From an uncultured Clostridia bacterium (GTDB lineage: Bacteria; Bacillota; Clostridia; Christensenellales; Borkfalkiaceae): a DNA stretch of 35,214 nucleotides. A model generated the notes under the pieces. That model saw nothing but the letters and a program-made list of their open reading frames with translations. It made no database searches and was not told the DNA's origin. Within the stretch, counting starts at the first letter, position 1; each line of letters begins with the position of its first letter. A program made the position numbers and the translations under genes. Positions 8,578 to 22,968 of this stretch are shown here, piece by piece. The DNA lies in contig CALVIN010000011.1 in NCBI GenBank assembly GCA_944330115.1, positions 1 to 35,214 on the forward strand. Direction: 5' to 3'.

Positions 8578-8580
8578 TTA

Positions 8581-8617
8581 AAATGCCGTTGATTGCGGCA
8601 TATATCGGGGTCAATTT
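8581..8617 (-). repeat. Intergenic ATATGCCGCAAC-motif repeat, copy 3 (inverted)
   Basis: Read on the minus strand it begins AAATTGACCCCGATATATGC and continues CGCAATCAACGGCATTT. It starts 4 bases after the ECF S stop codon. It closely matches the full-length copies at 29983 and 31411. Confidence 0.65.
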
Positions 8618-8654
8618 GCATTTTCAGTTTAGTTTTATTCGCTATAATATAAGC

Positions 8655-8685
8655 ACGCCCGCGCTTTTTTCAAAAGCGCGGGCGT
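8655..8685. other. 14-bp perfect hairpin downstream of the ECF S gene
   Basis: Arms ACGCCCGCGCTTTT and its complement (8655-8668, 8672-8685) enclose a 3-nt loop. There is no T-run after the right arm. A TATAAT at 8643-8648 lies just upstream with only a weak -35, so this could be a terminator for the operon or the start of a very short transcript ending at 8750. Confidence 0.5.
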
Positions 8686-8700
8686 ACTCGTATAAATTTC

Positions 8701-8750
8701 AAATTGGTGGCCGCATATGGCCGATCTAACGCCCTTTAAGCGGCCTTTTT
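8701..8750 (+). terminator. Variant ATATGCC repeat folded into a terminator-like hairpin
   Basis: The repeat variant AAATTGGTGGCCGCATATGG...AACGCCCTTTAAG (8701-8740) carries GGCCGC (8709-8714) that pairs with GCGGCC (8740-8745) and is followed by five T residues. It lies 5 bp from the end of the converging PstS-like gene. Confidence 0.5.
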
Positions 8751-8754
8751 ACAT

Positions 8755-9918
8755 TCAGTTTATCGGCGCAAAGCCGCACTTTTGGGCGATCTCCTGCCCC
8801 TGGCTGCCCGTCACCCAGCTTATAAACTGTTGCACGTTTTCGCCGCGCGCGGCGTTGGTCGCCATATATATGCCGTCGCATATGGGGTAACTGCCGTCTG
8901 TAATGTTTTCATCTTCGGGCAGCACGCCCTCTATGGCAATAGCTTTAGTTTCGGCATATTCCTCGCCCATTTCGCTCTTCAGCGCAAATCCTATCGCGCC
9001 CCGCGTGTTGCGGTATTGCACGTCGTAATAGTCGAACATAAAGTATGGGAATACCATGCGCAGCTTGCTTACCTGCGCCGTTATATTGCAGTTCAGCGTA
9101 CTTTCAAGTATGTCGCTCGGGGTGGTGAGTTTGTGGCGGGCATACAGTTCTATCTCTCTGTCTTCGCCGCCCACCTGCGCCCAGTTGGTTATCTCCCCCG
9201 TGCATATGCCGCGCAGCTGCTCCAACGTCAGGTTCTCCACGGGGTTGCTCTCGTGCGTGAATATCACCAGTGCGTCAAGCGCTACAAGCGTTACCTGCGC
9301 GCCTTCGGGCGGCGCAGAATAGTCGTCTTTTAAGTTTATGCCGCGCTCAAGCAGTATGTCAAATTCGCCTTCGTCAAACACAAACGCGGGCGAGCGGTTT
9401 GCCTCTAAATAGGCGTTCATGCCGTACGCATCATAGTCAGTTTGGGTGCTGTTTGGATATACCGACTTTATGTACGAGGCCGCAAGGGGATAGGCGGAGT
9501 TTGCAAGTATCGTGGGCGCGTCGTCAAGGGCAAAGGTAAGTTCGCTGCCGCCCTCGGGCGTTATCGCCTGCGTGTCTTCGTCAAAGGGGTAATAGTCGCT
9601 CTTTGCTATATATCTGTCGTCTATAGTTATCGCCTGCTCGTATATAACCACGCCGCCCACGGCAAGCAGGGCAATTACCGCCGCCAGCGCAATGCAGCCG
9701 CCCGCTATCAGTACGCCCCTGCGCCTTTCTTTGGGTATGCACCAGCCCACGCACAGCACTATTGCAACAATTATAAGCGAAAGTACGGCTATCGCCGGCC
9801 GCAGGTCGAATATGGTCACAACGTATGCCGCAATCAGCAATATAAATATTATAAGCGCGCACAACAGCACTTTTACAAGCGTCAAAAATATTGTGCCGAT
9901 AACTTTCTTTTTATCCAT
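8755..9918 (-). CDS. Membrane-anchored PstS-like substrate-binding protein
   Basis: This 387-residue protein combines a membrane N-terminus with a periplasmic-binding-protein-like domain. Residues about 5-115 hold three or four hydrophobic helices (LVKVLLCALIIFILLIAAYV, then AIAVLSLIIVAIVLCVGWCI, then GVLIAGGCIALAAVIALLAV). The rest resembles PstS-type phosphate-binding proteins of the PBP-like family: VIFTHESNPVENLTLEQLRG, then GEITNWAQVGG, and an ending with QFISWVTGSQGQEIAQKCGF. Family members bind phosphate or related oxyanions outside the membrane. No pst transporter genes are adjacent, and instead of the usual signal peptide it has a multi-helix anchor, so a sensing role is as likely as transport. 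AAGGAGG lies just upstream of ATG 9918. Confidence 0.8.
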   Translation of the reverse strand: MDKKKVIGTIFLTLVKVLLCALIIFILLIAAYVVTIFDLRPAIAVLSLIIVAIVLCVGWCIPKERRRGVLIAGGCIALAAVIALLAVGGVVIYEQAITIDDRYIAKSDYYPFDEDTQAITPEGGSELTFALDDAPTILANSAYPLAASYIKSVYPNSTQTDYDAYGMNAYLEANRSPAFVFDEGEFDILLERGINLKDDYSAPPEGAQVTLVALDALVIFTHESNPVENLTLEQLRGICTGEITNWAQVGGEDREIELYARHKLTTPSDILESTLNCNITAQVSKLRMVFPYFMFDYYDVQYRNTRGAIGFALKSEMGEEYAETKAIAIEGVLPEDENITDGSYPICDGIYMATNAARGENVQQFISWVTGSQGQEIAQKCGFAPIN

Positions 9919-9934
9919 ATTTTTCCTCCTTATA

Positions 9935-10423
9935 AAAATATTTAATTTAAATTATTTAATTATTTTTTTGCGGCAATTTTCTATATATTTTGCGGCAGAT
10001 AATTTTTTAATTTTTAAGTTAGAGCTATTTTTTAAATTTTTAATTTTTTCTGATTTTTATTTTGTTGCAAATTTTATTATATTGAATAATCTCAAATCTT
10101 TATTATATCGCATGATCTCAAAGCTATCTTTTTTCTTTATTATACAGCAAAAAATAAAAAAAGTCTGCAACACCCCTGTTACAAATCGCGCAAACGCATG
10201 TTACATTTTTTGTTTTGCCGCATTTATTCAGAAGTTTGCATGCCTTAATAGGCTATTTTAAAGATGTCGCAATCAAATTTTGTTGTTAAATACACTCGTT
10301 TCTTGAGCGTGCGCTCCCGCCTCGGGAGTGGCAGGGTATTTATTTCCCGCGCTGCAAGGTTATAAAATTACAGCGATTAAAAAAATTTTTTTCTAATGAC
10401 GCCCGTAAAAAGCGTTTCTGCTA
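9935..10423. other. AT-rich gene-free stretch before the TIR gene
   Basis: About 490 bp with no credible coding frame. 9935-10160 is almost entirely A/T with runs of TTTAATTTT type, in sharp contrast to the GC-rich neighbours. Around 10305-10380 are short inverted repeats (CTCCCGCCTCGGGAG at about 10315-10329; CGCTG...CAGCG, about 10351-10374, followed by ATTAAAAAAATTTTTTT). Nothing here matches an RNA gene I recognise. The composition marks the left edge of an accessory region. Confidence 0.6.
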
Positions 10424-10452
10424 TTGTAATGGCAATAAAAATATGGTAAAAT
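10424..10452 (+). promoter_or_regulatory. Promoter of the TIR-PP2C gene
   Basis: TTGTAA (10424-10429) and TAAAAT (10447-10452) with a 17-bp spacer; the transcript would carry a leader of about 95 nt. Confidence 0.65.
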
Positions 10453-10487
10453 GGAACAGGTGCTGCCGGTGGCAAATTGTCTGTTCC
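10453..10487 (+). promoter_or_regulatory. Inverted repeat at the TIR-PP2C transcription start
   Basis: GGAACAG (10453-10459) and CTGTTCC (10481-10487) flank an inner TGCC-GGT-GGCA hairpin (about 10463-10473). The repeat begins directly after the -10 box, a position suited either to a repressor operator or to a stem in the 5' leader. Confidence 0.5.
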
Positions 10488-10551
10488 GGTTTGTATGATT
10501 TTAAAAATAATTCATCAATATTCTTAAAATATTTATACGGAGAAAAAGTTT

Positions 10552-12894
10552 ATGGCAAGTGTTTTCATCAGTTATGCAACGCCCGATCATGTGTATGCTT
10601 CACGCATATATGATGGAATGGTGCTCCGTCATATCGATGCATGGTATGCTCCGGTTTCTATAGCCCCGGGCAAAGACTTCGTCAACGAAATCAGTTGCGA
10701 GTTTGCGCGGGAAGAAACAGATGAAGAGATCGAAAATCGTGTTGAACAATTTAATTCGCGCAATGTGTTCGTGTTTTTGCTGTCGGCCAATTCAATGAAT
10801 TCTAAATGGTGTAAAAAAGAGCTCACATTGGCTATAAACGATAATAAGCAAATTTTTGTGTTGCGTCTGGATAACACTCCGCTCACCGGCGTCTTTCGCA
10901 GCATGTTGGTCGATATACAGATCATACCTGCATATCATTTGCCTTCAAATGTTCTTGCGGAACTTTTGGACGAGGTAGAAAAAATTGTCGGCGGTCACGC
11001 TAAAAATTATTTTCGCAGCACGGAAAGCCATTTATATTCTTTTGATATAGATATAAAACAAATTGCTCAGGGCGACCCGTATTTTAAAGAGGGGGCCACG
11101 CTGTTGACTTCACTTTCGGAACTTGAATTTTATCTTGCCCCGCCTGTTGATGGGCTGACGCCTGCGGAACTTAAACGAGTTGAAGAAATGGATTGTTTTG
11201 TAAAAGAGGATAAAATACTTGATACCTCCTTAGACGAAGTTTGCAAACAGACCGGGATAAGCGACCTTAAAGAGCGGATCGAGCGCAGCAAATTGAGTGT
11301 TATACGCGACTTTATATCCCAGCGTAACGGCTGTTATTTTAATAATCGTAAGTATGGCATCAACAACATAAATCCATTCTCGCGCACCGAAGATCTGAGT
11401 GAAAGGGCAAAGGTCCTCATTGAGTTCTACACTACAGACTATTACACGCACAGGGTAATGAAGGATGTTTGCAAACAGATGTATGCTGAGGGCAACGCTT
11501 TTCTTACCGAGCGCCTTTCTTTTGAAAATATGCATCCGTTCAGGATACTTATCACTTCGTTGGGCCTGAATATTTTACTTGTGGAAACACATAGAGACAT
11601 CGATGTGGCGGCATTGCTTACGCGGCGCTCCACCAATTCAACAGAAACTTACGGCAAAGTGAATTATTCGTTGTCCGTCGTCGAGGGCGTGTCGCTCAGC
11701 GACTACGATCCGTTTACAAACAGCATAAATCTGCGGTTGGGTGTTGAACGCGGCCTGATGGAGGAGTTGGGAATAAGTCAGGAAAAAATACGTGCCGACA
11801 GCATAAGATTTCTCGATGTGTTTGTAAATCTTAAAAATTTGGAAGTGGGGATAAGCTGCACCGTCGATCTCTGCAATGATATAAAGATTGATAGTGACGT
11901 ATTGGGCCTTCACGGCAAGGATGAGAAACTTGAGGTGTGCGACAAACTTATCTGCAAGGTGTCTGACTTGAGCATGTTTGTCGATAAGCACATAGATGAA
12001 ATGTTGCCGCAAGCCGCATATACCATAGGAAGATACCTGCAGACGAAGGGTAACAACTATCTCATAGACAATGTGTTTGCGGCAGGCATGAAGGAAGAGC
12101 AGTTTATTATGGGAAAAAACGGCTCTGAAATATGCGGCGACGCCATCTATAACGGTAAAAATTTTGTAGCCGTTATCGACGGAGCCACGCCTAAAGGGAA
12201 TCTTCTTTGGGATGGGCTTGCCGGTGACGTGTTTGTGGCCCGGCTGCTCAAAAAGGAACTTGACGATCTTCCGCCGGAGCTCGACGCCGATCAGGCTATT
12301 GAATGGTTGAATAATTCTATAATCTCGTGCTACAAGAGGATGTGTACCGGAGAGCTCAGCAGCGAGAATACATTGCAGGCGAGCGTGGTGATATATTCTC
12401 GCGCTAAGCGGGAGATCTGGAGTTATGGCGACTGTAAATTTATGGTAAACGGCGCTTTGCGCAGTACGACCAAGGCAGTTGATGAATTGCTTTCAAGAGT
12501 ACGAAGTTTCTATTTGCAGACAGAAATAATGTTGGGTAAAACGGAAGAAGAACTTATGCGCTTTGATACCGGCAGGGAATTTATTTTGCCTTTGCTCAAG
12601 CGGCAGAGTATGCTCATCAACTCGCAAGAGCCGTATGGCTATCCCGTACTTAACGGCCGCACTCTTTGCCATGACCAGCTCAGGGTGATCAAACTTAAAG
12701 CGGGCGATCACGTAGTTTTATCAAGCGACGGCTATCCGGAACTATATCCTACCCTCGGCAAGAGCGAGGAGCGGCTTGCTGAAATAATTAAGAGCGATCC
12801 CCTCTGTATGTGGAACCATGTCGATACAAAGGGCGTTAAAAAGGGCAATGTGTCTTACGACGACCGTTGCTATATCAGCTTCTTTATCAAATAA
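10552..12894 (+). CDS. TIR / Nudix-like / PP2C phosphatase multidomain protein
   Basis: This 780-residue protein has three parts. Residues 1-145 are a TIR domain: VFISYATPDHVYASRIYDGM, WYAPVSIAPG, and SKWCKKEL with Glu90 at the usual catalytic position of NAD-cleaving TIRs. Residues about 325-480 resemble a Nudix fold; ERGLMEELGI (399-408) matches most of the Nudix box, with Gly401 in place of a catalytic glutamate. Residues about 505-780 are a PP2C-type phosphatase keeping all main motifs: GDA (529-531), VIDGAT (541-546), YGDCKF (625-630), LSSDG (723-727) and YDDR (769-772), including the metal-binding aspartates. ATG 10552 follows ACGGAGA. It stands alone with its own promoter and terminator and has lower GC and different codon use from its neighbours. 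An immune or signalling role is inferred; the Nudix call is less sure than the other two. Confidence 0.85.
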   Translation: MASVFISYATPDHVYASRIYDGMVLRHIDAWYAPVSIAPGKDFVNEISCEFAREETDEEIENRVEQFNSRNVFVFLLSANSMNSKWCKKELTLAINDNKQIFVLRLDNTPLTGVFRSMLVDIQIIPAYHLPSNVLAELLDEVEKIVGGHAKNYFRSTESHLYSFDIDIKQIAQGDPYFKEGATLLTSLSELEFYLAPPVDGLTPAELKRVEEMDCFVKEDKILDTSLDEVCKQTGISDLKERIERSKLSVIRDFISQRNGCYFNNRKYGINNINPFSRTEDLSERAKVLIEFYTTDYYTHRVMKDVCKQMYAEGNAFLTERLSFENMHPFRILITSLGLNILLVETHRDIDVAALLTRRSTNSTETYGKVNYSLSVVEGVSLSDYDPFTNSINLRLGVERGLMEELGISQEKIRADSIRFLDVFVNLKNLEVGISCTVDLCNDIKIDSDVLGLHGKDEKLEVCDKLICKVSDLSMFVDKHIDEMLPQAAYTIGRYLQTKGNNYLIDNVFAAGMKEEQFIMGKNGSEICGDAIYNGKNFVAVIDGATPKGNLLWDGLAGDVFVARLLKKELDDLPPELDADQAIEWLNNSIISCYKRMCTGELSSENTLQASVVIYSRAKREIWSYGDCKFMVNGALRSTTKAVDELLSRVRSFYLQTEIMLGKTEEELMRFDTGREFILPLLKRQSMLINSQEPYGYPVLNGRTLCHDQLRVIKLKAGDHVVLSSDGYPELYPTLGKSEERLAEIIKSDPLCMWNHVDTKGVKKGNVSYDDRCYISFFIK

Positions 12895-12908
12895 ACAACT
12901 ATATTGAG

Positions 12909-12944
12909 GCGGGGCAGAGCTAATTTCGCTCTGCCCCGCTTTTT
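12909..12944 (+). terminator. Intrinsic terminator of the TIR-PP2C gene
   Basis: A perfect 12-bp stem (GCGGGGCAGAGC) with a 7-nt loop is followed by five T residues, 14 bp after the stop codon. Confidence 0.92.
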
Positions 12945-13013
12945 AAAATTCTTCAATATGGCGAAACAGCACAAGCGTTCTTTTTGTGACAAAGTAGTTC
13001 AAGTCATTAAACC

Positions 13014-13040
13014 TGGTGCAGATAACAGGAGTTGCGCCTT
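13014..13040 (-). repeat. tRNA-Leu 3'-end duplicate, distal copy
   Basis: Twenty-one bases identical to the 3' end of the tRNA-Leu gene at 13704-13724 (T-arm, acceptor strand and CCA; core GTGCAGATAACAGGAGTTG), followed by CGCCTT as in the copy at 13197. There is no complete tRNA attached to it. It is an attachment-site-like remnant of integration or partial tRNA duplication. Confidence 0.75.
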
Positions 13041-13056
13041 GAGCGGACGCGCACGG

Positions 13057-13080
13057 AAAACAGCGGGTGTCCGCTGTTTT
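13057..13080. repeat. GTGT-loop hairpin 1
   Basis: Perfect 10-bp stem (AAAACAGCGG and complement) closed by a GTGT loop. A second hairpin, GTCGGCGG...CCGCCGAC, follows at 13081-13102. Confidence 0.65.
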
Positions 13081-13154
13081 GTCGGCGGTAGAACCCGCCG
13101 ACCTGCGCAAGCAGAGCTTGCTTGCCTCCCCTCAACTCCTGCATTTACCTGCAC

Positions 13155-13197
13155 AAAAAAAATTCCGACGGCAAGGAAACCCTTGCCGCCGGAATTT
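13155..13197 (-). terminator. Terminator attached to a tRNA-Leu 3'-end duplicate
   Basis: A 17-bp stem with one mismatch (13160-13176 with 13181-13197) reads, on the minus strand, straight out of the CCA end of the duplicate at 13197-13217 and is followed by eight T residues (13155-13162). It looks like a genuine minus-strand tRNA terminator that has lost its tRNA body. Confidence 0.7.
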
Positions 13198-13223
13198 GGT
13201 GCAGATAACAGGAGTTGCGCCTT
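13197..13223 (-). repeat. tRNA-Leu 3'-end duplicate, proximal copy
   Basis: Same 21 bases of tRNA-Leu 3' end as at 13014 and 13704, again followed by CGCCTT and not by the rest of a tRNA. Confidence 0.75.
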
Positions 13224-13267
13224 TGGCGGCGCTTCTCGCCATGCGTGCGGTATATTCCGCATGGCTT

Positions 13268-13348
13268 GGTCACCGCTCGGGCGTGCATATGCCCTCGCTC
13301 ATCTCGCTGCGGCACGCACAGCGGGTGTCCGCTGTGCTATGAAATGCC
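13268..13348 (+). repeat. 81-bp dispersed repeat, copy A
   Basis: From GGTCACCGCTCGGGCGTGCA to CTATGAAATGCC. It is virtually identical to 13543-13623, and an inverted copy lies at 19106-19185. It contains a GTGT-loop hairpin (13316-13337, arm GCACAGCGG). Confidence 0.85.
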
Positions 13349-13359
13349 TTGCTCGTCCC

Positions 13360-13387
13360 ACTGAAAGGCAGGTGTCTGCCTTTCAGT
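13360..13387. repeat. GTGT-loop hairpin with unrelated stem
   Basis: Perfect 12-bp stem (ACTGAAAGGCAG and complement) closed by GTGT, the same loop as in the neighbouring hairpins despite a different stem sequence. Confidence 0.65.
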
Positions 13388-13542
13388 TTGCGTTAAGTTC
13401 TCCGCTCTCGTTTTTATCCGCACGCAAACCGCTCACTCCCGTTCTGCCGTTTCCACGCCTTGCGCGGAACCTCGGCAGAGTGTCGGAGCAAAGCTCCTCG
13501 CGCGCGCCTCTTCTCGCGCGGCGCAAGGTAAACGCCGCGCTC

Positions 13543-13623
13543 GGTCACCGCTCGGGCGTGCATATGCCCTCGCTCATCTCGCTGCGGCACGCACAGCGGG
13601 TGTCCGCTGTGCTATGAAATGCC
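13543..13623 (+). repeat. 81-bp dispersed repeat, copy B
   Basis: Direct copy of 13268-13348. Similarity to the inverted copy near 19106 extends about 30 bp further left (CTCGCGCGGCGCAAGGTAAA and following), which copy A lacks. Confidence 0.85.
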
Positions 13624-13664
13624 GCGCCTCCACCCTCAACTCCTGTTATGTTACAAATTTACAA

Positions 13665-13706
13665 CCAAACAGATAGGGATGGCGTTTGCCATCCCTATCT
13701 GTTTGG
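13665..13706 (-). terminator. Hairpin abutting the tRNA-Leu 3' end
   Basis: A perfect 19-bp stem (GCCATCCCTATCTGTTTGG and complement) with a 4-nt loop begins inside the encoded CCA of the tRNA. It would act as transcription terminator or 3'-processing signal on the minus strand. The T-run after it is weak. Confidence 0.65.
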
Positions 13707-13786
13707 TGCAGATAACAGGAGTTGAACCTGCACGGTTGCCCACGGGATTCTAAGTCCCGCGCGTCTGCCAATTCCGCCATATCTGC
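13704..13786 (-). tRNA. tRNA-Leu (anticodon UAG), CCA encoded
   Basis: Read on the minus strand the gene starts GCAGATATGGCGGAATTGGC (acceptor strand and D-arm), has the anticodon loop ACTTAGAAT with anticodon TAG, a class II variable arm (GTGGGCAACCGTG), the T-arm AGGTTCAACTCCT and the acceptor end TATCTGCACCA. The acceptor stem pairs over all seven positions. The long variable arm and UAG anticodon identify leucine (CUA and CUN codons). Its 3' end is duplicated at 13014 and 13197, typical of tRNA genes used as integration targets. Confidence 0.95.
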
Positions 13787-19460: not shown

Positions 19461-20480
19461 TTAATTTTTATTTAATTTTTTGATGCGGGTGAAATACAGT
19501 ATGCAATACACCGCCGCGCCTGTTAGCCACTCAAAAAACATCGCCACTAGTGCGCCGGCTATCGCCGTTTCGGAATAGTCGGCTGCTAACATGCCGTCTT
19601 CAAAAATAAACAACGACGGGTTGTTTATAACTACAAGCATAAACACAAACAGCAATATATACAGTATGCCGCACACAAGCGATACAACAAGCAGCAGCTT
19701 GTTGTTCTTCGCCATAAAAGTCCGGTGCCCGCCGTCAAATTGCAGCCTGCCGGAAGAGATCATGCGCGGGCGTATGCCCTTGAAGTATATGCCGTACGCC
19801 GCCAGCGCAAACATGCAGCCCAGCCCCAGCCCGGGGAAGGGGAACAGCAACTGCATACTGTCGTATGGGTCGAGTATGCACAGCGGTATGCATATGCCGA
19901 ATATAAAGGCGTTTACCATTATTGCCGCCATGGCAAGCTTCATCACCTTTGCGTTGTGTGCAAATATCTTTTGCCCCGCAAGCTCGCCCAGCTCGTCGTC
20001 GGGCTTTACTATTGCGTTTAGCGCAAACACGGCCTCGCATATTACGGCCGCCACCGCCAAAAATGCGGGCAGCAAAAAGCCCAGCCAGCTCACGTCGTCC
20101 TCATAGCCGCAGACCGCGCATATCACCGCGACCACCGCGCCGAGCAGCGCCAGGCCGAAGGCTATGAACGAAAGGTTCCTGAAGAGCGAAAACTTTTTTG
20201 TAAGTATTGCGCCGGCGCGCCTCTCGCTCTGTTCGGCAACGTAGGTGGAGGGCTGCTCTTTGAGCGGGCTGTTCTTCTCGCCGCGCAACAGCTCGTCGCT
20301 CGTTATGCCGAAAATTTCGGCTATCGCCGGTATAAGGTACAGGTCGGGCAGGCACTCGTCGCACTCCCAGCGGCTTATCGTCTTGTCGGAGACGTACAGC
20401 ATATCGCCCAGCTCCTTCTGCGTAAGCCCCTTTGCCCGCCGCAGGGCGGATATAAATTTGCCTATGGTCTTTCTTTCCAT
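19461..20480 (-). CDS. XRE-type HTH protein with membrane domain (paralog 1)
   Basis: This 339-residue protein has an N-terminal XRE helix-turn-helix (residues about 6-60: ISALRRAKGLTQKELGDMLY, VSDKTISRWE, then LPDLYLIPAIAEIFGITSDE LL). A linker is followed by five or six hydrophobic segments from about residue 100 (FIAFGLALLGAVVAVICAVC and others). Such membrane-tethered HTH proteins are common regulators in Clostridia, probably sensing envelope state; the signal is unknown. It is a diverged paralog of the gene at 20769-21839, with nearly identical HTH regions and different membrane parts. AAGAGG lies 9 nt before ATG 20480. It has its own promoter and terminator. Confidence 0.88.
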   Translation of the reverse strand: MERKTIGKFISALRRAKGLTQKELGDMLYVSDKTISRWECDECLPDLYLIPAIAEIFGITSDELLRGEKNSPLKEQPSTYVAEQSERRAGAILTKKFSLFRNLSFIAFGLALLGAVVAVICAVCGYEDDVSWLGFLLPAFLAVAAVICEAVFALNAIVKPDDELGELAGQKIFAHNAKVMKLAMAAIMVNAFIFGICIPLCILDPYDSMQLLFPFPGLGLGCMFALAAYGIYFKGIRPRMISSGRLQFDGGHRTFMAKNNKLLLVVSLVCGILYILLFVFMLVVINNPSLFIFEDGMLAADYSETAIAGALVAMFFEWLTGAAVYCILYFTRIKKLNKN

Positions 20481-20564
20481 AAAAATTAACCTCTTATTTT
20501 TTGCTTAAAATTTACTTTCAGCGCGCTGTGCGGCGGGGTGCTTTTTGCCCCTGCTGCACTTTTT

Positions 20565-20592
20565 ATTATATACAATTCCGCCCTGCCGTCAA
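20565..20592 (-). promoter_or_regulatory. Promoter of HTH-membrane paralog 1
   Basis: On the minus strand TTGACG (20587-20592), a 16-bp spacer and TATAAT (20565-20570). Confidence 0.75.
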
Positions 20593-20690
20593 TAAATTCC
20601 CTCCGCGCGCCGCAGGAAAAACTCCCGCGCTGCGAGAATCTGCAAAAAATGCCGCCATCTTTTTATCGTGGAATTTTTCTTTAAAGGGGG

Positions 20691-20726
20691 TATGCCGCCC
20701 CGCCGCAAAAGCGGCGGGGCGGCATA
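20691..20726 (-). terminator. Hairpin downstream of HTH-membrane paralog 2
   Basis: A perfect 16-bp stem (TATGCCGCCCCGCCGC) with an AAAA loop; on the minus strand it is followed by CCCCCTTT. Probable terminator of the 20769-21839 gene. Confidence 0.65.
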
Positions 20727-20768
20727 CTGAAAAAAATAAAAAATCAAATTAAAAAAATCAATTTATTT

Positions 20769-21839
20769 TTAATTTATTTTATTATTGTTATTATTTTTAT
20801 TGTTATTGTTATTGTTTTTATTTTTATTTTTGCTCTCCGCTCTCTTCTGCCTGCTCTCCTTGCGCTTTGCAATGCAACTGCGGATAAATATTATCGCGTT
20901 GTATACGGCGGCGCAAATTATGCAGTCGGCAAACATGCACAGGTGCGGTATATCGCTGTAATCCCCGTCGGGGTATGCAAAAAGGCATATTATCGCCGCA
21001 ATCGCGGCCGAAACAAATATTATGCCTCCCACAAAGGCCGTTTTTGCCAGAATTTTCCGATATGTCTCTCTCTGCGCCGCGCGCTCGGGCGAAAAATACA
21101 GAGCGCCGCGGCCGATCAGCGCGGGGCGTATGAATACGCCGTATACGGCAAATATCACGGCGCCCGTGCAGCATGTAATTTCCAGCCCCGATGTCAGCCA
21201 CGACTCCGCGGCAAGACGCATTCCTCCTCCCGTCAGATATGCCGCGAGCGGCGTGCAGAATGCCACTATGCATATATCTGCGGCGATTATGCCCGCGGCG
21301 GTGCGCGTTATGATGTTCTGAACGGCGCGGACGCGCGTCGCGATGGCCGCAAATTCCTCGGTGCGGCGCAGCGAATATGTGATCGCCAGGCATACCTCGA
21401 TTATCGCGCTTCCCAGGCAGCAGCCTGCCGCAACAAAAAAGCCTATCAGCCCCTCATACAGCAGCAGATTGAGCAGCACCGCCGTCGTAAGCCCCGCAAA
21501 TGAGAGGACGGCAGGTATGGCCGTGAGCATGCTGAAATGTTTAAGTCGCCGCTCCACCATCACCAGCGCCCGCTTTTCGCCCTTGCCGAGCAGGTTTGAG
21601 GGGGTATTGTCTGCGTTTTCGGCGTTGTTCCGCTCGCCGCGCAGCAGTTCGTCGCTCGTAATGCCGAATATCTCGGCAATGGCGGGTATTAGCGCGAGGT
21701 CGGGCAGGCACTCGTCGCGCTCCCAGCGGCTGACCGTCTTGTTGGAAACATAAAGCATATCTCCCAGCTGTTTTTGAGTAAGCCCCTTGGCCTGCCGCAA
21801 TACCGATATAAATTTTCCTATGCTCTTTTTATCTTCCAT
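20769..21839 (-). CDS. XRE-type HTH protein with membrane domain and Asn/Lys tail (paralog 2)
   Basis: This 356-residue protein has the same plan as its downstream neighbour: an XRE HTH (residues about 6-60: ISVLRQAKGLTQKQLGDMLY, VSNKTVSRWE, IAEIFGITSDELLRGE) and then about six hydrophobic segments (for example GLTTAVLLNLLLYEGLIGFF and IIAADICIVAFCTPLAAYL). The last about 25 residues form an almost pure Asn/Lys tail encoded by an AT-rich microsatellite (20769-20835), which is not expected to fold and may vary in length between strains. The gene starts 58 bp after the LRR lipoprotein gene on the same strand and may be cotranscribed with it. No strong ribosome binding site is visible before ATG 21839. 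Confidence 0.85.
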   Translation of the reverse strand: MEDKKSIGKFISVLRQAKGLTQKQLGDMLYVSNKTVSRWERDECLPDLALIPAIAEIFGITSDELLRGERNNAENADNTPSNLLGKGEKRALVMVERRLKHFSMLTAIPAVLSFAGLTTAVLLNLLLYEGLIGFFVAAGCCLGSAIIEVCLAITYSLRRTEEFAAIATRVRAVQNIITRTAAGIIAADICIVAFCTPLAAYLTGGGMRLAAESWLTSGLEITCCTGAVIFAVYGVFIRPALIGRGALYFSPERAAQRETYRKILAKTAFVGGIIFVSAAIAAIICLFAYPDGDYSDIPHLCMFADCIICAAVYNAIIFIRSCIAKRKESRQKRAESKNKNKNNNNNNKNNNNNKIN

Positions 21840-21897
21840 ATCTCAAAAACGGGCGCTGCGCCCGCATAAGTTGCCGCCGCGCGCAGCCGGCCTCATA

Positions 21898-22968
21898 TCA
21901 GTTGTCATACGGGCCGTAGCCATCGCGGTACATGTCCTCTTCGGAGAGATGCGGGACGCCGTATTCCTGTTCCCTGCCGCTTAAAATTTCGGCCATCAGC
22001 TCGGAGTCGCTCATGTCAACGTCTACGGCAATGATATGAAGCCCGCCGTAAAACCAGCCCGTCGGCTCTTCAAACACCACTTCGTTCAGGTTGCTGCATT
22101 CTTTAAAGGCGTATCTCCCTAAATATCCCACGGTGGCGGGTATGGTTATCTCCACCAGCGTGTTGCAGCCGTAAAACGCGCGCGAATCTATGATCTCCGT
22201 GCCGTCGCCCATATCTATGTCAACAAGGCTTTGGCACCCTGCAAAGGCGTATGCGGGTATGGTATCTATGCTGCCCGGCAGATTTACGCTGCGCAGCATG
22301 CGGCAATCTTCAAACGCGCTCTCGCCAAGCTCGGTCACGGTGGAGGGGATGCGCAGTCTGGTCATGTCGTTTGCGGAGAATGCGTCTTCGCCGATGCTTA
22401 CCAGTCCCTCGTTCAGCTCCAGGCTTTCCATGCGGCAGCTGCTGAAGGCATAGTCGCACACATGTTTTACCGAAGAGGGCAAAACGACGCTGCCGAGCGA
22501 GGTGCCGAAAAAGCAGCGGGTGGGTATCTCTGTGAGTCCGTCAGGCAGATTTATCTCCTGCAGCGCCGAGCATTGGCAAAAGGCATAGCTTCCGATGCTC
22601 GTGAGGCTTTCGGGGAGAACGGCTTTGGTAAGCTCATAACAGTTGTTGAAGGCATATTGCCCTATATATTTCACTCCTTCGGCTATTTCAACGCTGCGCA
22701 CCGTGCCGTTTGAAAAGGCAAAGCTGTCGATGCCCTCCACGGGCAGCCCGTTATAGCTCGATGGCACCCTGGCGATATCTCCGCCGATCGCGGAGGTAAC
22801 TATATATGCGTCCCCTTCGTCGTTGAGCGCATATTCAAGCACGGCCTCAGTCTGTGGGTCGTCCGGGTCGTCCGGGTCGTCCGGGCGGAGCTCAACTTCC
22901 GCATGCGCGCAGGCGCACAGCGGCAGCAGCGCCGCGGCCGCAAGCGCGGCGGCTATAAGCTTTTTCAT
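21898..22968 (-). CDS. BspA-type leucine-rich-repeat lipoprotein
   Basis: This 356-residue surface lipoprotein has a signal peptide ending at LCAC (Cys20) and a short Asp-Pro linker (DDPDDPDDP) encoded by a 9-bp tandem repeat (about 22859-22888). About nine LRR_5 (BspA-like) repeats of 22-23 residues follow, for example IGQYAFNNCYELTKAVLPES, IGSYAFCQCSALQEINLPDG and LGESAFEDCRMLRSVNLPGS. The C-terminal about 45 residues leave the repeat pattern and are acidic. Such proteins are cell-surface adhesins or binding proteins common in gut Clostridia. AAAGGAG lies before ATG 22968. It may form an operon with the HTH-membrane gene downstream. Confidence 0.92.
   Translation of the reverse strand: MKKLIAAALAAAALLPLCACAHAEVELRPDDPDDPDDPQTEAVLEYALNDEGDAYIVTSAIGGDIARVPSSYNGLPVEGIDSFAFSNGTVRSVEIAEGVKYIGQYAFNNCYELTKAVLPESLTSIGSYAFCQCSALQEINLPDGLTEIPTRCFFGTSLGSVVLPSSVKHVCDYAFSSCRMESLELNEGLVSIGEDAFSANDMTRLRIPSTVTELGESAFEDCRMLRSVNLPGSIDTIPAYAFAGCQSLVDIDMGDGTEIIDSRAFYGCNTLVEITIPATVGYLGRYAFKECSNLNEVVFEEPTGWFYGGLHIIAVDVDMSDSELMAEILSGREQEYGVPHLSEEDMYRDGYGPYDN

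Follow-up and report, generated by a model that had tools for sequence, protein, structure and literature searches.

Results

The window, as we call the whole 35,214-nucleotide stretch of DNA analyzed here, comes from an uncultured Clostridia bacterium. On its plus strand a single gene (10552..12894) encodes a 780-residue product with no internal stop, in which a TIR domain, a NUDT22-like Nudix module and a PP2C phosphatase domain follow one another. The sequence GGAG, which resembles a ribosome-binding site, lies 9 nt 5' of the ATG (10539..10542, plus strand), and an intrinsic terminator consisting of a perfect 12-bp stem and a T-run is found at 12909..12944 (plus strand); both were read directly. 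Because the hairpin stands just 3' of the stop codon and the GGAG box precedes the gene, these signals suggest a one-gene transcript. The GC content of the gene is 0.45 and that of its flanks about 0.55. The region 12904-13617 was considered as a partner gene and rejected: it is repeat-rich, matches no family above cutoff and contains copies of a tRNA end. Comparison with the PDB by sequence, using the whole protein, two middle-domain alignments and a PP2C alignment, gave no significant relevant match.

The gene lies in a 5.1-kb stretch (8578..13703) bounded by a tRNA-Leu (tag) gene on the minus strand (13704..13786). In one syntenic relative, the left flank (five window genes including rpoC), the tRNA-Leu and three right-flank genes are found in the same order, and about 295 bp take the place of the 5,126 bp that separate 8577 from the tRNA. 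In three further relatives, the right flank alone was found in the piece examined. The same stretch holds a divergently oriented gene for a PstS-like phosphate-binding protein (8755-9918), relatives of which, with 24-44% identity, are present in 12 of the 60 other genomes of the genus searched. The 21 nt of the tRNA-Leu 3' end recur exactly at 13014..13034 and 13197..13217 (both plus strand). All three copies of this end are downstream of the gene, which excludes them as att sites flanking it, and no integrase family was recognized among the scanned ORFs of the stretch. An 85-nt direct repeat (13264-13348 and 13539-13623) clusters with the tRNA-end copies beside the tRNA (13014-13724). A similar 17-nt sequence with one mismatch is present twice on the genome's own contig C1, near 23 kb. 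Elsewhere in the window, 19461-22968 is occupied by three adjoining minus-strand genes of similar size, and the two that were scanned encode HTH_3 regulators.

The distribution of the protein is patchy. Of 396 genomes in the order, one, its own, contains a full-length match; 85 others match only parts, with the TIR domain in all but one. The middle module is present in one of 61 genomes of the genus and in 11 of 398 genomes of a phylum sample, own genome included. PP2C matches were found in seven of the same 398 genomes, again counting its own, and the other six are weak and partial. Because of this patchiness and the GC content, we favor a gain of the stretch here over a deletion in the syntenic relative, which would look alike. 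The genome that carries the gene also encodes a second TIR protein (L111 2201-3340, 380 residues in an open frame), whose C-terminal part is different. One more genome of the order has a lone terminal fragment of this PP2C subfamily (L113 3660-4016), seemingly a remnant.

Searched against about 5.8 billion proteins, the sequence had 40 matches. One of them (P0002) is the protein itself, and 35 have 731-847 residues with at least 94% query coverage. The remaining four (P0038-P0041, 552-629 residues), three without the TIR domain and one without most of the PP2C domain, possibly because contigs end there, were excluded for length, so that the family alignment consists of 36 rows. The identity to the query is 39-80%, and the order of the three parts is constant. 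The first-pass annotation had read three domains in one chain, a TIR glutamate at the putative NADase position, a nearly complete Nudix box with Gly401 in place of a catalytic Glu and a full set of PP2C metal-binding aspartates. The order recurs in all 35 homologues and, as described below, each of these residues is invariant in the family.

The TIR domain (residues 1-147; 10552..10992, plus strand) was identified by both fold and profile, with Pfam TIR_2 (3.3e-12) and ThsB_TIR (6.3e-5) above cutoff. Glu90 (codon 10819..10821, plus strand) and Trp86 are identical in 36 of 36 rows. We take Glu90 to be the catalytic glutamate on the basis of the TIR motif W-x-x-x-E, and NAD+ cleavage by this domain is predicted.

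The middle domain (residues 162-502; 11035..12057, plus strand) has a predicted Nudix fold that resembles NUDT22 along its full length at 13% identity. This result speaks against the domain being unrelated to Nudix, the outcome that would have weakened the earlier interpretation. The Pfam scan of the protein itself listed no NUDIX match, and the corresponding domain of the relative P0149 is above the Pfam NUDIX cutoff (21.7 vs 21.1 bits). With hhalign, the Nudix alignment A2 matched the single protein P0042 weakly (probability 35, register doubtful), and with the family alignments A5 (47 chosen sequences) and A6 (50 of 120 listed proteins) the match had a probability of 90 and an E value of 1.5e-6. 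The box region (residues 378-408, R400-G401-x-x-E404-E405-L-G; 11683..11775, plus strand) is not a complete R-E-U-x-E-E box, as its first Glu position is Gly401 in 36/36 rows. All pattern matches read R-[G/A]-x-x-E-E, with 29 Gly in the 41 proteins of the first search; among the 120 listed matches of the standalone module, 109 have Gly and seven have Ala at this position. Glu404, Glu405 and Glu461 (codon 11932..11934, plus strand) are likewise identical in every row. They align with three acidic residues, Glu150 in the case of Glu461, of X29, the best relevant row of the PDB sequence searches and a weak match (E = 0.58). With these residues invariant and so aligned, ligand cleavage by the domain is possible. 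The Nudix domain probably binds a nucleoside-diphosphate ligand and may slowly cleave it.

The C-terminal domain (residues 513-780; 12088..12891, plus strand) has the PP2C fold, including a conserved helical stretch at 642-688. Asp530, Asp543, Asp627, Asp719 and Asp726 are identical in 36/36 rows, and Asp770 and Asp771 in all 35 rows having letters there. These are presumably the metal-binding residues, as judged from PP2C motifs, and the domain is predicted to be a competent phosphatase. Its Pfam PP2C_2 match (E = 0.03, 14.3 bits) is below the gathering score of 24. MT838773.1, a 4.9-kb human-faecal record under the name 'Bacteriophage sp.', encodes a PP2C-like piece with 39.5% identity (57-527).

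Pairwise distances in the TIR, middle and PP2C parts (residues 513-720 for the last) correlate at 0.74-0.88 in the family alignment, and in each of the three tests none of 2000 permutations reached the value. The three parts have therefore mostly traveled together. The mean identity is 0.50 for the Nudix part, 0.49 for PP2C and 0.39 for TIR. The faster change of the TIR domain would be expected if the Nudix–PP2C half reads infection.

The middle module also exists without the other two parts. It stands alone in Nitrincola, Paenibacillus, Rhodoferax and other bacteria (five of 17 loci), and three loci are on contigs of a viral collection. A search with one standalone module gave 161 matches, of which 120 were listed. 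At least 170 residues precede the conserved TDY in 106 of the 120 listed matches, and 75 of these 106 pass a crude threshold for a hydrophobic segment near the N terminus (a mean of 1.6 over 19 residues; the remaining 31 score 0.89-1.59). One of the 31, P0149, carries a TIR domain of a different type before the same Nudix family. A second Nudix family, also with a predicted NUDT22 fold, has either membrane-type helices (P0201) or a TIR domain (P0203) in front. The same PP2C is fused to this second family in P0201, P0206 and P0218 (profile E values of 1e-65 to 1e-67). In Acetoanaerobium it is encoded by an overlapping next gene, and two neighbors of this gene pair had no PDB match. In the 16 standalone-module loci searched with our own profiles (3.3-21 kb each, several only 3-7 kb), neither a TIR ORF nor this kind of PP2C was found (0/16 for each). 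The module ORF of two loci (L018 and L096) is missing from the crude non-overlapping ORF list, where a longer overlapping frame displaced it. The second family had no match in the phages searched, and a search of 398 genomes with alignment A6, run without a positive control, gave no match.

Two distant relatives of the module (L098 4958-5977 and L099 5502-6743) are inside sugar-nucleotide/glycosyltransferase clusters with genes for UDP-glucose/GDP-mannose dehydrogenase, epimerase, and glycosyltransferase or sugar transferase. The first cluster was assigned by Pfam, and the second by one Pfam-scanned glycosyltransferase and by eye. These relatives are possibly bacterial counterparts of the UDP-sugar activity of NUDT22. 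Two viral contigs also carry a NUDT22-like gene (L023 9704-10849 and L024 9701-10858). The former is located just upstream of the genes for terminase small, terminase large and portal, and ORFs of the same sizes are present on the latter. The viral gene may encode a counter-defence function or a packaged enzyme.

The neighborhoods of 12 full-length loci were compared. High-identity neighbors recur only between near relatives (L006/L007 and L011/L013), which rules out a conserved operon partner; L006/L007 and L012 have a few genes in common, at 25-27% identity and in other positions. The 76 neighbors match 94 Pfam families, mostly metabolic among the 25 listed. In PADLOC, run with no control set alongside, they match 31 scattered families, and the 25 listed include PDC-S72, capP, capH, mad2 and RmrA. 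When 20 neighbors were scanned singly, two had PADLOC matches, both weak (L013 13963-16431 and L012 8505-11144), and each of these loci also has another TIR protein close by. An Arthrobacter plasmid carries a second-family relative and a gene whose annotation is TaqI-like C-terminal specificity domain protein; on a Lachnospira plasmid, roughly 3 kb separate a shorter second-family relative from a gene with the annotation Abi family. These plasmid and neighbor findings are no proof of defence enrichment. Consistent housekeeping surroundings would have weakened the immune interpretation, and the outcome was mixed.

Discussion

In this study, a gene encoding a TIR–Nudix–PP2C chain was analyzed. 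On balance, the gene is probably a self-contained sensor–effector, and most likely encodes an abortive-infection (anti-phage) protein. The NUDT22-like domain would be the sensor of a small nucleoside-diphosphate ligand whose level is altered on infection. The C-terminal PP2C would control the state of a partner or of the chain itself. Killing would be the task of the N-terminal domain: the TIR, once assembled, would cleave NAD+, and in relatives killing may fall to a membrane-spanning part instead. That outputs are swapped before a conserved sensor, and that the sensor and PP2C change more slowly, would be expected if the Nudix–PP2C half were the part that reads infection.

A sharper form of this sensor–effector explanation gives the phosphatase the leading part. 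The PP2C would silence the TIR by dephosphorylation or keep watch on a host kinase; a phage that disturbs phosphorylation or nucleotide-sugar pools would then release the TIR. The invariant metal-type aspartates are consistent with this proposal, and the same subfamily beside two effector types is what would be expected for a regulator of the shared Nudix part. However, the module can do without PP2C, as the 16 standalone loci indicate, and we regard the proposal as tentative.

The first-pass annotation had also suggested that an NAD-derived signal may be made, sensed and reset within one chain. In such a loop in cis, the TIR would make an ADP-ribose-type signal, the Nudix domain would sense or destroy it and the PP2C would reset the protein. 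Nudix enzymes are described as able to act on ADP-ribose compounds (PMC9503650), the three invariant glutamates would permit cleavage if their weak alignment with X29 holds, and TIR domains recur on the same module in P0149 and on the second family in P0203. On the other hand, TIR ORFs are absent from the standalone loci searched, and the second Nudix family and the same PP2C stand behind membrane helices; the ligand therefore need not be a TIR product. In addition, every pattern match of the clade has Gly or Ala where a Nudix box has its first Glu, and the fold comes closest to a UDP-glucose hydrolase. Output swapping and the slower change of the sensor and PP2C also count against a closed loop, with a Nudix domain that deals solely with what its own TIR produces. 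This part of the suggestion was not borne out, and the loop is unlikely.

Still less probable is a cell-envelope or sugar-nucleotide metabolic regulator unrelated to immunity, which the description of NUDT22 as a UDP-glucose hydrolase (PMC10101856) and the two relatives in sugar-nucleotide clusters would suggest, the latter pointing to metabolism and counting against the anti-phage reading, but against which stand the TIR effector, the single-gene unit, the patchy distribution and the finding of no sugar-nucleotide gene among the window neighbors scanned. The immune interpretation itself retains its ground outside the closed NAD-signal loop: the distribution is patchy and insertion-like, and effectors are swapped as in immune proteins.

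If the sensor–effector explanation is taken further, the protein might represent a new class of immune receptor, a speculative proposal, in which a NUDT22-like domain reads a phage-disturbed metabolite of the nucleotide-sugar type, gated by PP2C and connected to interchangeable TIR or membrane effectors. To our knowledge, this would be the first case in bacteria of TIR-mediated cell death linked to protein dephosphorylation, and the NUDT22 fold would gain its first role in immunity. The known triggers of bacterial TIR immune proteins are nucleotide signals, nucleic acids and partner proteins; to these the chain described here would add metabolite sensing and dephosphorylation. The module combinations, in which a TIR or a membrane part, either of two Nudix families and an optional PP2C occur, amount to a natural experiment: the shared parts must carry the shared sensing. 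All of the parts are encoded in one gene, and one plasmid suffices for testing.

The first-pass annotation knew of no characterized protein with this domain order, and we found no description of one in the full-text literature, most subscription papers aside; in the excerpts of PMC7159879, nudix, TIR domain and PP2C appear in other systems. Compared with the bacterial PP2C/PPM phosphatases tPphA, PstP, Stp1 and RsbX, the PP2C domain here forms a subfamily of its own, under the Pfam PP2C_2 cutoff. Human NUDT22, a UDP-glucose/galactose hydrolase, shares the predicted fold with both Nudix families, but differs from the present module in its low sequence identity and in the first Nudix-box Glu, which is Gly (or Ala) in this clade. 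SPARTA TIR-APAZ differs in its partners: neither Argonaute nor APAZ was found among the scanned neighbors, and no Retron-TIR/SPARTA partner (reverse transcriptase or Argonaute) was recognized among the 10 window proteins scanned.

The TIR domain is related to ThsB of Thoeris, as indicated by Pfam ThsB_TIR and by PADLOC ThsB (2e-6). The two are also alike in logic, as a TIR or TM part is paired with a nucleotide-sensing domain; in Thoeris type II, ThsA has the form TM–macro. The present system differs in that it is one gene with a Nudix sensor and an added PP2C, and ThsA is absent among the scanned neighbors: of the 10 window proteins, only the TIR–Nudix–PP2C protein matched any PADLOC model.

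By description, the nearest known parallel is probably CBASS Cap16, a NUDIX-containing TM effector (PMC10419184). The likeness lies in the pairing of an effector with NUDIX, as many relatives here join a hydrophobic segment to a NUDT22-like domain; the present protein differs in carrying TIR and PP2C. No PADLOC model matched five Nudix-module proteins at E<=1, and no CBASS CD-NTase was recognized among the 10 window proteins scanned, immediate neighbors included. With a predicted TIR output and a putative Nudix sensor in one chain, the protein would join the known single-protein effectors, of the TIR or membrane kind, that carry a nucleotide sensor.
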